Source: Deltaproteobacteria bacterium (lineage in GTDB: Bacteria > Desulfobacterota > Desulfuromonadia > Desulfuromonadales > Geopsychrobacteraceae). Taken from it: a DNA stretch of 64,000 bases. The first letter of the stretch is position 1. The number at the start of each line of letters is the position of its first letter. Shown here in pieces: positions 45,063-48,187 of this stretch. The position numbers were made by a program, and so were the translations under genes. The notes under the pieces were generated by a model. The model had not been told where the DNA came from. It made no database searches and worked only from the letters and a program-made list of their open reading frames with translations. The stretch spans positions 1 to 64,000 of the forward strand of contig JAJRQI010000004.1 of the NCBI GenBank assembly GCA_024280335.1, given 5' to 3'.

Positions 45063-45110
45063 CAACAAGATATTGTGTTTAATGAGAAGCGGAACTACAA
45101 GATGTAGTGT
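45063..45110 (+). promoter_or_regulatory. Tandem NrdR boxes upstream of nrdD
   Basis: Two 16-bp sites, CAACAAGATATTGTGT (45063-45078) and CTACAAGATGTAGTGT (45095-45110), match the NrdR box pattern ACACwATATaTwGTGT on the reverse strand. Their offset is 32 bp, about three helical turns, the standard spacing. A possible -35 TTGCTC (45047-45052) and -10 TATTGT (45071-45076) would place the first box over the promoter. Between 45111 and 45252 I see only the leader. NrdR should repress this operon when dATP is high. Confidence 0.85.
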
Positions 45111-45252: not shown

Positions 45253-47241
45253 ATGATTGAGTTTATCCGCAAGCGTGACGGTCGTTTGCTACCGTACGAA
45301 GAGGAAAAGATCGCCCAGGCGATCATCAAGGCGGTTCAGGCTGTCGGTGGGACCGACCTGCATAAGGCTGCGGATATCACCCGCCAGGTCGGCGGTATCC
45401 TGTCGGTTCTCTATAAGGATGGTCGGGTGCCGACGGTCGAAAATGTTCAGGATCTGGTCGAGAAGATTCTGATCGAAAATGGCCACGCCCAGACCGCCAA
45501 AGCCTATATTCTCTATCGTAAGCAGCACGAAAGCCTGCGCCAGACCAAAGAGTTTATGAAGGAGTCGATCGAGGCGATCGATTCCTATCTGGTACGTGAA
45601 GACTGGCGTGTCAACGAAAACGCCAATATGGGCTATTCACTGCAAGGGCTGAACAATCATATCGCCGCCAATATCACCAGCAATTACTGGTTGAATAAAA
45701 TTTATCCGGATGATGTCGCCAATGCCCATCGTGATGGCGAGTTTCATATCCACGATCTGGGGATGCTTTCGGTCTATTGCTGCGGCTGGGATCTGAAGGA
45801 TCTGCTGCTGAAAGGTTTTACCGGCGCCTATGGCAAGGTGCAGAGCGCTCCGCCGAAACATTTTCGGGCGGCACTCGGGCAAGCGGTCAACTTTTTCTAC
45901 ACCCTGCAAGGCGAGGCGGCCGGGGCGCAGGCGTTTGCCAATTTCGATACCCTGATGGCACCCTTTATCGCTTACGATCAGCTCGATTACGCGGCAGTCA
46001 AGCAGTGCCTGCAGGAGTTTGTTTTCAATATGAATGTGCCGACCCGGGTCGGCTTTCAGACGCCCTTCACCAATATCACCATGGATATGATGGTGCCGAC
46101 GACTATGGCGAACGAAGCGGTGGTGATCGGCGGCGAACTGCAGGATCGCGGTTACGGGGAGTTTCAGGTTGAGATGGATATGCTCAACCGGGCCTTCTGT
46201 GAAGTGATGATGGCGGGTGATTCCTCGGGACGGATTTTCTCATTTCCGATCCCGACCTACAATATTACCAAGGAGCTTGACTGGGACAGTGACCGCTTGC
46301 AACCGGTCTGGGAGATGACCGCCAAGTACGGCATCCCTTACTTCAGCAATTTCGTCAATTCTGATATGGACCCGGAAGATGCCCGCTCCATGTGCTGCCG
46401 TTTGCGACTCGACAATCGTGAATTGCGCCGCCGGGGCGGCGGCCTGTTCGGCTCCAATCCGCTGACCGGTTCCATCGGTGTGGTGACCATCAATCTGCCG
46501 CGCGCCGCCTATCAAACCGCTAGCCAGGGCGATTTTTTTATTCGCATCGGTCGGCTGATGACGTTGGCTTTTGCCTCGTTGGAGCTCAAACGCAAACAGC
46601 TTGAGCGGCTGACAGAAGAGGGACTTTATCCCTACAGCAAGTTCTATCTTGCGGCGATTCGTGAGCGTAGCGGCAAATTCTGGGATAACCATTTTTCCAC
46701 CATCGGCCTGATCGGCATGAACGAGGCATGTCTCAACCTCAACGGCAGCGGTATCGACAGCCCCGAGGGGCAGTCGTTGGCCAAGGCGACCCTCGATTTT
46801 ATGCGCCAGCAGCTGGAGGCTTTTCAGGAGGAGACCGGCCACCTCTACAATCTCGAAGCGACCCCGGCCGAAGGAACCAGCTACCGGCTTGCCAATCGTG
46901 ATCGGCAGCATTATCCTGACATCATCACTGCCGGAACCGATGAGCCTTACTACACCAACTCGACCCAGTTACCGGTCGGTAGCACCGAGGATATTTACCA
47001 GGCGCTTGAACATCAGGACGGCTTGCAGACGCTGTACACCGGCGGCACGGTTTTTCACGGCTTCCTCGGTGAGCGACTCGACGACTGGCGTAGCGCCCGG
47101 TTGTTGGTACAACGAATTTCCGAGAATTTCCACCTGCCCTACTTTACCATCAGCCCGACCTTTACCATCTGTCCGGTCCACGGTTATATTTCCGGCGAAC
47201 ACTTTGCTTGTCCGCACCATCAGGAGGGTCAGGCGGCATAG
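45253..47241 (+). CDS. nrdD: Anaerobic ribonucleoside-triphosphate reductase, large part lacking the glycyl radical tail
   Basis: Class III ribonucleotide reductase, 662 aa. An ATP-cone regulatory domain covers about 1-95 (MIEFIRKRDGRLLPYEEEKI). The ten-stranded barrel follows, with candidate active-site cysteines at MCCRL (C381, C382). The chain ends just after ICPVHGY (C640) and ACPHH (C653), where most homologues continue through a zinc-binding CxxC and the RVCGY glycyl radical loop. Those are absent here and are found on the separate gene at 47340. ATG 45253 has GGGAGG upstream. Two NrdR boxes precede it. Confidence 0.95.
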   Translation: MIEFIRKRDGRLLPYEEEKIAQAIIKAVQAVGGTDLHKAADITRQVGGILSVLYKDGRVPTVENVQDLVEKILIENGHAQTAKAYILYRKQHESLRQTKEFMKESIEAIDSYLVREDWRVNENANMGYSLQGLNNHIAANITSNYWLNKIYPDDVANAHRDGEFHIHDLGMLSVYCCGWDLKDLLLKGFTGAYGKVQSAPPKHFRAALGQAVNFFYTLQGEAAGAQAFANFDTLMAPFIAYDQLDYAAVKQCLQEFVFNMNVPTRVGFQTPFTNITMDMMVPTTMANEAVVIGGELQDRGYGEFQVEMDMLNRAFCEVMMAGDSSGRIFSFPIPTYNITKELDWDSDRLQPVWEMTAKYGIPYFSNFVNSDMDPEDARSMCCRLRLDNRELRRRGGGLFGSNPLTGSIGVVTINLPRAAYQTASQGDFFIRIGRLMTLAFASLELKRKQLERLTEEGLYPYSKFYLAAIRERSGKFWDNHFSTIGLIGMNEACLNLNGSGIDSPEGQSLAKATLDFMRQQLEAFQEETGHLYNLEATPAEGTSYRLANRDRQHYPDIITAGTDEPYYTNSTQLPVGSTEDIYQALEHQDGLQTLYTGGTVFHGFLGERLDDWRSARLLVQRISENFHLPYFTISPTFTICPVHGYISGEHFACPHHQEGQAA

Positions 47242-47339
47242 TAACCATGTTTGTAACTATTTAGCACATCCCCCCCTTGTCCCTGTTGCAACCGGGGAGC
47301 GAAGGGGATTTCTGAAAAATGAGAAGCGAGGAGAGTTAT

Positions 47340-47486
47340 ATGGCAACCAAGTGTGATTCAAAAACAGAAGTTTATTCACGTGTCTGCGGTTTCTTCCGAC
47401 CGGTTCAACAGTGGAATCGCGGTAAAAAGGAAGAGTTCAAGGACCGTTCTGAGTATCAGGTGACGAGCAAGGAGCAAAACCGCTGA
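47340..47486 (+). CDS. Separate glycyl-radical domain peptide of NrdD (48 aa)
   Basis: A 48-codon gene with GAGGAG six bases before ATG 47340. The product holds KTEVYSRVCGFFRPVQQW, the exact glycyl-radical loop of NrdD, with Gly17 as the radical site and Cys5 as a possible zinc ligand. It is in a different frame from nrdD and 98 bp downstream, so a simple stop read-through or a single frameshift would not restore one chain. It ends in CTGA, overlapping the nrdG start. I infer that the active reductase is made of two polypeptides. It is too short for many gene finders. Confidence 0.88.
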   Translation: MATKCDSKTEVYSRVCGFFRPVQQWNRGKKEEFKDRSEYQVTSKEQNR

Positions 47487-48187
47487 ACTCTATCCGCATC
47501 AAGGGGGTTCAAGGGACCAGCCTGCTCGACTTTCCTGGGCGGGTTGCGACGCTGCTGTTTACCGGCGGCTGTAACCTGACCTGCCCGTTTTGTCACAACC
47601 CGGGACTGGTCATGAGTCCGGATGATTTTCCCGATATCCCGATCGACGAGTTGCTGGCAGACCTGAAAAAGCGCAAGCGGTTTATCGACGGGGTTGTTAT
47701 ATCGGGCGGAGAACCGACCCTCGATACAGGTCTGCCGGCTTTTTTACGCCAGCTCAAACAGCTGAATCTGCAGGTGAAACTGGACAGTAACGGTCTGCTG
47801 CCGCAGGTAATTGAAGGATTGCTCGATGAGCGTTTACTCGATTACCTGGCAATCGATATCAAAACGGTTCCGCAGCGCTATTCCGAACTGCATACGCAGC
47901 CGGTGGCGACTGCCGGTCTGTTACGAACGATCGAACTGGCCAAAACAGCGTCGATTGAGGTTGAATTTCGCACCACCTGTGTACCGCAACTGATCGACAG
48001 ACAGGAAATTGCCGAGATCGGCAGTCTGCTGCGGGGGGCACCGCTCTGGGTGCTGCAGCAGTTTGTCCCCGAGCACTCACTGGTTGTCGACTGGCAACAA
48101 TCGCCGACTTATGCAGCGACCCGACTGGAGGAGTTTTCTCAGTTGGCGGAAGAATATGTCGGACGGGTCGTGACGCGGGGGATCTGA
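47483..48187 (+). CDS. nrdG: Anaerobic ribonucleotide reductase activating protein (radical SAM)
   Basis: Radical SAM activase that makes the glycyl radical on NrdD, about 234 aa. The cluster C30-x3-C34-x2-C37 (GGCNLTCPFCHN) is intact, followed by VVISGGEPTLD. The only start that keeps this cluster and has a ribosome site is CTG 47483, with AAGGAG nine bases upstream; the first ATG (47612) would remove the cysteines. The CTG overlaps the stop of the glycyl peptide by 4 bp. Length is nearer to the longer NrdG form than to the 154-residue E. coli one. Confidence 0.88.
   Translation: MNSIRIKGVQGTSLLDFPGRVATLLFTGGCNLTCPFCHNPGLVMSPDDFPDIPIDELLADLKKRKRFIDGVVISGGEPTLDTGLPAFLRQLKQLNLQVKLDSNGLLPQVIEGLLDERLLDYLAIDIKTVPQRYSELHTQPVATAGLLRTIELAKTASIEVEFRTTCVPQLIDRQEIAEIGSLLRGAPLWVLQQFVPEHSLVVDWQQSPTYAATRLEEFSQLAEEYVGRVVTRGI

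Follow-up and report, generated by a model that had tools for sequence, protein, structure and literature searches.

The stretch of DNA analysed here (the window) comprises 64,000 nucleotides, positions 1 to 64,000 of the forward strand of contig JAJRQI010000004.1 (GenBank assembly GCA_024280335.1), from a Deltaproteobacteria bacterium of the Geopsychrobacteraceae (Desulfobacterota; Desulfuromonadia; Desulfuromonadales). In the window, a gene for the class III ribonucleotide reductase (RNR) NrdD, the oxygen-sensitive enzyme that makes DNA building blocks, is followed by a separate small ORF and by the gene for the activase NrdG. The features are as follows.

45063-45110, + strand: two NrdR-box-like sites upstream of nrdD (45063-45078 and 45094-45110), tentative
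45253-47241, + strand: nrdD large chain (662 aa), ATP-cone and class III RNR barrel, ending after the third zinc-ligand position
47170-47211, + strand: three zinc-ligand positions on the large chain, C640 (47170-47172), H643 (47179-47181) and C653 (47209-47211)
47242-47339, + strand: 98-nt intergenic stretch
47328-47333, + strand: ribosome-binding site GAGGAG of the small ORF
47340-47486, + strand: small radical chain (48 aa), with Cys5 (47352-47354) at the fourth zinc-ligand position and Gly17 (47388-47390) as the predicted radical glycine in RVCGFF
47483-48187, + strand: nrdG activase (NrdG2 type), with an inferred CTG start overlapping the TGA of the small ORF

The nrdD ORF stops with TAG at 47239-47241, after ...CPVHGYISGEHFACPHHQEGQAA. 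The small ORF, MATKCDSKTEVYSRVCGFF..., opens in another frame at ATG 47340, 6 nt behind GAGGAG. Mechanical ORF calling places its start earlier, at ATG 47319 (55 aa). However, we take 47340 because of the ribosome-binding site and the conserved MATKC start. In a Pfam search, the large chain matched the ATP-cone (PF03477, 7.2e-20) and positions 1-526 of the 562 positions of NRDD (PF13597, 1.8e-176), and the small chain matched positions 526-562 of PF13597 (8.7e-11), so that nothing of the family is missing. NCBIfam gives the large chain NF006126 (1024 bits). The downstream ORF matches TIGR02495 above the cut-off (3e-55), and this is the only match over the cut-off in the genome. From position and homology, we infer that nrdG begins at CTG 47483; ORF listing with ATG, GTG and TTG starts misses it. 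An in-frame CTG stands at the same place in 25 of 70 relatives' loci with an NrdG motif. A hairpin can be drawn in the intergenic stretch, but it is not significant (z -1.41; 15 of 200 shuffles fold as well) and we make no claim for it. The evidence for the NrdR boxes is also weak: there were 3 hits against 0.48 expected, two of them one palindrome read on both strands, and the second pattern was written after the site had been seen. The observation in the first-pass annotation, namely that nrdD breaks off and that the radical loop lies 98 bp later in a different frame with its own GAGGAG site and ATG, is confirmed, and the arrangement is wider than could be seen from the window; the overlap with nrdG is added here.

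Two outcomes had been named in advance as counting against the split: a joining of the two frames by resequencing, and a second full-length nrdD elsewhere in the genome. We searched the genome (3.59 Mb, 72 contigs, 99.5% complete) with NRDD. Exactly two matches were found, the large and the small chain, and no second nrdD is present. We then examined relatives. Of 60 relatives searched, 56 have NRDD matches and 4 have none; in all 30 loci that were read, which are the best-scoring, the two ORFs are separate. In the named collection genome_contigs, 77 of the best 80 of 203 hits to the small protein have the large chain just upstream. These include the cultured Desulfuromusa kysingii, Malonomonas rubra, Pelovirga terrestris and Geothermobacter hydrogeniphilus. 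The search patterns were taken from small chains of the window's type (type B, below) and favour that type, but they did not include the zinc Cys. Of the 111 loci with a small chain (30, 80 and the window's own), 3 had no large chain upstream (loci are designated by L numbers and genomes by G numbers): L106 lies at a contig edge, and L087 and L107, two Desulfuromusa assemblies, keep the small ORF but have lost nrdD, apart from a 22-residue remnant in L087. The remaining 108 loci collapse to 88 distinct pairs, and one (L135, with a run of N) was dropped, leaving 87. Type-B pairs also occur in assemblies labelled Chloroflexi (L080), Gammaproteobacteria (L103) and, by taxonomy, Myxococcota (L140); whether these are mislabelled bins or transfers was not decided. 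The split stands in many independent assemblies, cultured isolates included, and neither of the two outcomes named in advance was borne out.

The junctions vary. Among 87 distinct junctions, the stop codon is TGA in 53, TAG in 21 and TAA in 13, and the relative frame is 0, 1 or 2 in 34, 15 and 38. The gap runs from 11 to 290 nt. No recoding signal, intron or single error explains this. Over 3828 pairs of 88 loci, the 34 core codons of the small ORF have pN 0.08 and pS 0.85 (saturated), and a stretch of the large ORF has pN 0.13 and pS 0.69. Thus, both ORFs are under purifying selection. A Shine-Dalgarno-like pattern stands before the small ORF in 89 of 89 distinct loci, although the pattern is permissive (357 of 2160 random 18-mers match). 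An NrdG motif lies close downstream in 70 of the 89 loci; it was not seen in 16, and 3 reach the contig end.

We next examined the zinc site. T. maritima NrdD binds zinc by CxxxHx6CxxC, and the T4 and E. coli enzymes by CxxCx14CxxC (PMC4493059). Most fused homologues read from the phylum have CPxHGY..GE...CPxC followed, four or so residues on, by EVYSRV. In contrast, in the window's type the large chain stops after CPxH...C (in the window, ...FTICPVHGYISGEHFACPHHQEGQAA) and the small chain begins M-x-x-K-C-x-x-K-T-E-V-Y, so that its Cys falls on the fourth ligand. In 87 of 87 distinct pairs, C, H and C on the large chain and Cys on the small chain are invariant, and the radical glycine of the RVxG[YF] loop is likewise present in 87 of 87. 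The place three after the third ligand, where fused homologues have the fourth Cys, holds twelve different residues (H in 42, Q in 14 and ten others in the rest). However, the second place after the third ligand is H in 74 of 87, and His or Cys stands three or four after the third ligand in 70 of 87 large chains and could complete the zinc site without the small chain; 17 have neither. Conservation thus points to a four-ligand site divided between the chains, but metal was not measured and the fold model is of low confidence there, so this comparison does not settle whether the site exists in that form. We take the shared zinc site as likely, not shown.

To see whether the small chain can occupy the usual place of the radical domain, we used a natural locus, L124, which reads from large to small chain in frame through one TAG and could be folded as one chain. 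A first AlphaFold2 prediction with 36 alignment rows was uninformative (pLDDT 60, C-terminal part under 50) and was discarded. With 57 rows, fused viral enzymes among them, pLDDT was 86.4 and pTM 0.81. Residues 681-710 of the small chain score 84-88 and its last ten residues 68, whereas the linker and the first five small-chain residues, including the Cys (residue 680), lie in blocks at 46 and 53. VIA-align spans model 100-706 on T. maritima NrdD 33-637 (Z 30.9, rmsd 3.1, 526 aligned) and model 94-715 on Prevotella copri NrdD (Z 35.8); a span gives only the first and last aligned residue. The small chain can thus take the usual place of the radical domain in the predicted fold, but the alignment half suggests this, and the model does not test the zinc site, because the Cys lies in a low-scoring block, the alignment held fused viral enzymes and zinc geometry was not measured.

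Detachment of the radical domain recurs with other junction designs. Among 146 genomes of the class, 79 have an NRDD match; the matches examined, not all of them, include at least one fused copy (G074) and at least one genome with only the small chain (G163). The fused nrdD (L046, contig C2 of G074) is in a genome of the window's order that also has the split nrdD and a lone radical chain. Among 297 genomes drawn from the phylum, 188 have NRDD matches; most of those examined, again not all, run to the end of the family in one frame, but several families end near position 526-532. Bacterial phyla other than the window's were not surveyed. We named the junction designs by their ends, by eye. Type B is that of the window's order, with the Cys on the small chain. 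Type C (L050, L051) has CPKC and a charged tail, and a small chain with a charged, helix-like N-terminus. Type D (L053-L057, L059) has CPxPH and an extension. Type E (L058, L060-L065) has CPxC and a small chain with CEVWTRVMGYHRP. Type F (L048, L049) is a distant subfamily whose small chain scores weakly (E 0.24 and 0.32) and is the least sure. In types C, D and E, the large chain has a fourth candidate ligand of its own, and the small chain lacks the Cys in 2 of 2, 6 of 6 and 7 of 7 loci (15 of 15).

We also considered whether the split had one origin. On a tree of 57 barrels, cut before the zinc site, types C, D, E and F are each one clade (99-100 support), and 20 of 21 type-B rows form one clade (87/96), whereas L140 (long branch) stands apart. 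Fused and split change at least five times on the best tree, and starred branches force at least three changes of the fused label. However, the tree carries long-branch warnings (L047, L260, L046, L140 and others), several deep forks are open and only 21 chosen type-B rows are in it. Therefore, we say only that a single change does not fit it. In viruses, of 79 NrdD barrel loci, 50 are fused, 22 end after the zinc knob with a separate radical ORF in the locus, 3 are otherwise broken, 3 lie at an edge and 1 shows none. The 22 were obtained from 25 loci labelled split by setting aside L288, L290 and L325 (broken in the barrel or unclear), and they are 20 distinct ORFs of 73. Two viral loci, L330 and L339, have CPxC on the large chain and the Cys on the small chain too, which counts against the shared zinc site. 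In L292, L294 and L337, the viral NrdD ORF runs on into a thioredoxin-like tail, judged by eye.

Small radical chains also occur without a barrel. We examined 19 genomes picked for extra or fragmented NRDD matches, so that the counts are not frequencies; ten of them have a second type-B small chain away from nrdD. Nine of the ten neighbourhoods (L193-L202) have PHROG matches that fit a prophage: DNA transposition protein (L198, L200, L201), Mu Gam-like (L196, L197), endolysin (L202, L199), integrase (L199), primase and neck protein (L194) and, in L195, only a family of unknown function beside ORFs that look Mu-like. In the tenth, L193, a neighbour matches CobT- and cobalamin-type PHROGs, which are no phage hallmark. 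A scan of virus contigs with type-B small chains, whose patterns favour that type, gave 56 loci (L203-L258). We then searched PF13597 in 50 of 58 records (49 of these contigs' records and the virus ANMV-1, KP703175). Only the last few dozen positions were found in 48 records, and a barrel plus a separate radical ORF in two. One of the 48 lone matches (G482) is under the Pfam cut-off, some contigs are near-copies (L205, L206), and many are fragments, so that absence of a barrel is not proof for each. In ANMV-1, whose host is given as an uncultured archaeon, the match is a 144-aa protein annotated as anaerobic ribonucleoside triphosphate reductase. Of 55 distinct small chains, 38 have the zinc Cys, 11 have only the Cys next to EVY, 4 have neither and 2 could not be read. 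GemA-, Gam-, MuB-like or another shared marker lies in the fetched stretch in 13 of 56 loci, GemA in 11; in several Mu-like phages the radical-chain gene lies just before a GemA-like gene. These small phage genes may be overlooked by annotation: the members scanned matched only whole-NrdD models or weak models of unknown function in Pfam, NCBIfam and PHROGs.

Proteins of YfiD-like shape were found in some genomes with a fused nrdD, among 21 genomes picked for extra or fragmented NRDD matches, whose counts are again not frequencies. In a family designated f58, five of five genomes tested (picked for two or more NRDD matches; G197 of that family showed one) have a fused nrdD, that of G447 with an internal stop, and also a separate protein of about 100 aa (L354, L355, L356, L358, L361, L369). 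It consists of an N-terminal part of ~70 aa without a Pfam or NCBIfam match and a radical domain like that of their NrdD, and is a candidate spare part for class III RNR. A PHROG of unknown function matches the N-terminus of one. Another genome with a fused nrdD (G444) encodes a 112-aa protein with a cysteine-rich N-terminus and an NrdD radical domain (L365).

From these results, we propose with high confidence that the locus encodes a working class III RNR made of two polypeptides. What the sequences themselves show is that the large chain carries the ATP-cone, the barrel and three zinc-ligand positions, that the small chain carries the fourth position and the radical loop, and that both are conserved, co-encoded with nrdG and under purifying selection. 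The rest of the mechanism is our inference: Zn2+ would be held by three residues of the large chain and Cys5 of the small one, stapling the radical domain to the barrel; NrdG would put the radical on Gly17; the loop would enter the barrel as in one-chain NrdD; and after oxygen cleaves the loop only a 48-aa chain would need replacing. Phages that carry only the small chain may load it onto the host's large chain. There are no protein, EPR or metal data, and neither the glycyl radical nor NTP reduction was assayed. We regard zinc sharing as likely, phage supply as evenly balanced and replaceability as possible but somewhat less likely than not. The interpretation in the first-pass annotation is supported. 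Its claim that the break falls inside the zinc knob, with zinc perhaps shared, is supported by conservation but not proven, and its suggestion that the small chain is replaceable like YfiD stays an inference, made more plausible by the lone small chains in virus records and by the YfiD-shaped proteins. The genome also has a PF02867 reductase that looks class II by eye, so that NrdD need not be essential, and, as described above, two related assemblies have lost the large gene.

We weighed other explanations. It is possible, but in our view unlikely, that the enzyme is two-chain while the zinc site is complete in the large chain (Cys, His, Cys, His) and the small-chain Cys does something else, such as docking or contact with NrdG. 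The His or Cys residues after the third ligand favour this reading, as do the type D large chains, which end CPxPH and whose small chains have no such Cys. However, the 17 large chains without His or Cys at these places, the lack of any single conserved position against a small-chain Cys that never varies, and the absence of that Cys in 15 of 15 loci of types C, D and E speak against it. A reading in which the small chain is only a repair part, used after oxygen cleavage, is very unlikely. Its size and shape recall YfiD, lone copies exist in prophages, and spare parts may exist for other glycyl radical enzymes (PMC8683613). In this genome, however, the large chain has no radical domain to repair and there is no other NRDD match, so the small chain would be the primary radical carrier and repair could only be an extra benefit.

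A frameshift, sequencing error or decaying copy can be all but dismissed. The presence of another reductase and the loss of the large gene in two assemblies could be cited for it, but the same split in many assemblies, the three frames and three stop codons, the varied gaps, the purifying selection on both ORFs and the absence of another nrdD contradict it. Production of one chain by recoding, intron splicing or an intein is also very unlikely. Phage nrdD genes are often broken by introns and inteins (PMC3653736; PMC12363816), but the mixture of stop codons and frames, gaps as short as 11 nt and the start with an SD-like pattern in 89 of 89 loci argue against it here.

If the two-chain reading is true, this would be a glycyl radical enzyme whose radical-bearing domain is a separate gene product, so that radical transfer between chains, docking and exchange after oxygen damage could be studied by mixing parts. 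In these sediment bacteria the enzyme is encoded as two separate proteins, and the occurrence of the tiny chain on its own in some phages suggests a detachable and perhaps replaceable radical part. A more tentative reading, somewhat less likely than not, is that bacteria replace it after oxygen damage and that phages of anaerobes, an archaeal virus included, carry only this tiny subunit and use it to capture or revive the host's reductase barrel, with one gene of about 45-150 residues in place of a whole reductase. The phage side could be the larger discovery. The finding bears on the open question whether spare parts exist for glycyl radical enzymes other than pyruvate formate-lyase (PMC8683613). 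We found no account of a class III RNR with a separately encoded radical domain in the open-licence literature searched, which did not include RNRdb (PMC9531940, PMC3019208, PMC9669993, PMC4493059, PMC4390871, PMC11226230, PMC11528403, PMC12288474, PMC8683613, PMC3653736, PMC3322345, PMC3888941, PMC9694453, PMC12363816, PMC12338860). Some cellular organisms are said to contain split RNR genes, without the organisms or the class being given (PMC3653736), so an earlier mention cannot be excluded. Division of an RNR over two chains is known from class II.

Four known systems are closest. Phage nrdD genes in pieces (PMC3653736; Jug phages, PMC12363816) likewise have nrdD in several ORFs, but they are described as introns, inteins, endonuclease insertions or unexplained fragmentation. 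In Jug phages, no splicing evidence was seen between the 230-aa and 91-aa pieces; that this may be a radical-domain split is our guess. The split class II RNR NrdJa/NrdJb (PMC9669993) is also divided over two chains, one with the C-terminal zinc finger. However, it is a B12 enzyme without a glycyl radical, split domains may be strategies for oligomerization distinct to class II (PMC9669993), and the large chain described here matches NRDD and ATP-cone only in Pfam at E up to 0.1, not the class I/II barrel PF02867. YfiD/GrcA and Y06I, spare parts of pyruvate formate-lyase (PMC8683613), are small separate proteins with a glycyl radical domain. Y06I is a phage T4 protein. They belong to a different enzyme family and rescue an enzyme that has its own radical domain, whereas here the small chain is the only one found; the small ORF matched PF13597 only at E up to 0.1, and the one PF01228 (Gly_radical) match of the genome is on another contig. 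One-chain class III NrdD (T. maritima 4coi, E. coli, phage T4) has the ATP-cone (where present), barrel, zinc knob and radical loop in the same order, belongs to the same Pfam family and has an NrdG partner. In the solved structures, however, barrel and radical domain are on one polypeptide, with the zinc knob and radical loop on the same chain. In contrast, the chain here ends between the third and fourth zinc-ligand positions, and we therefore regard the enzyme as a two-chain variant and not as the standard form.
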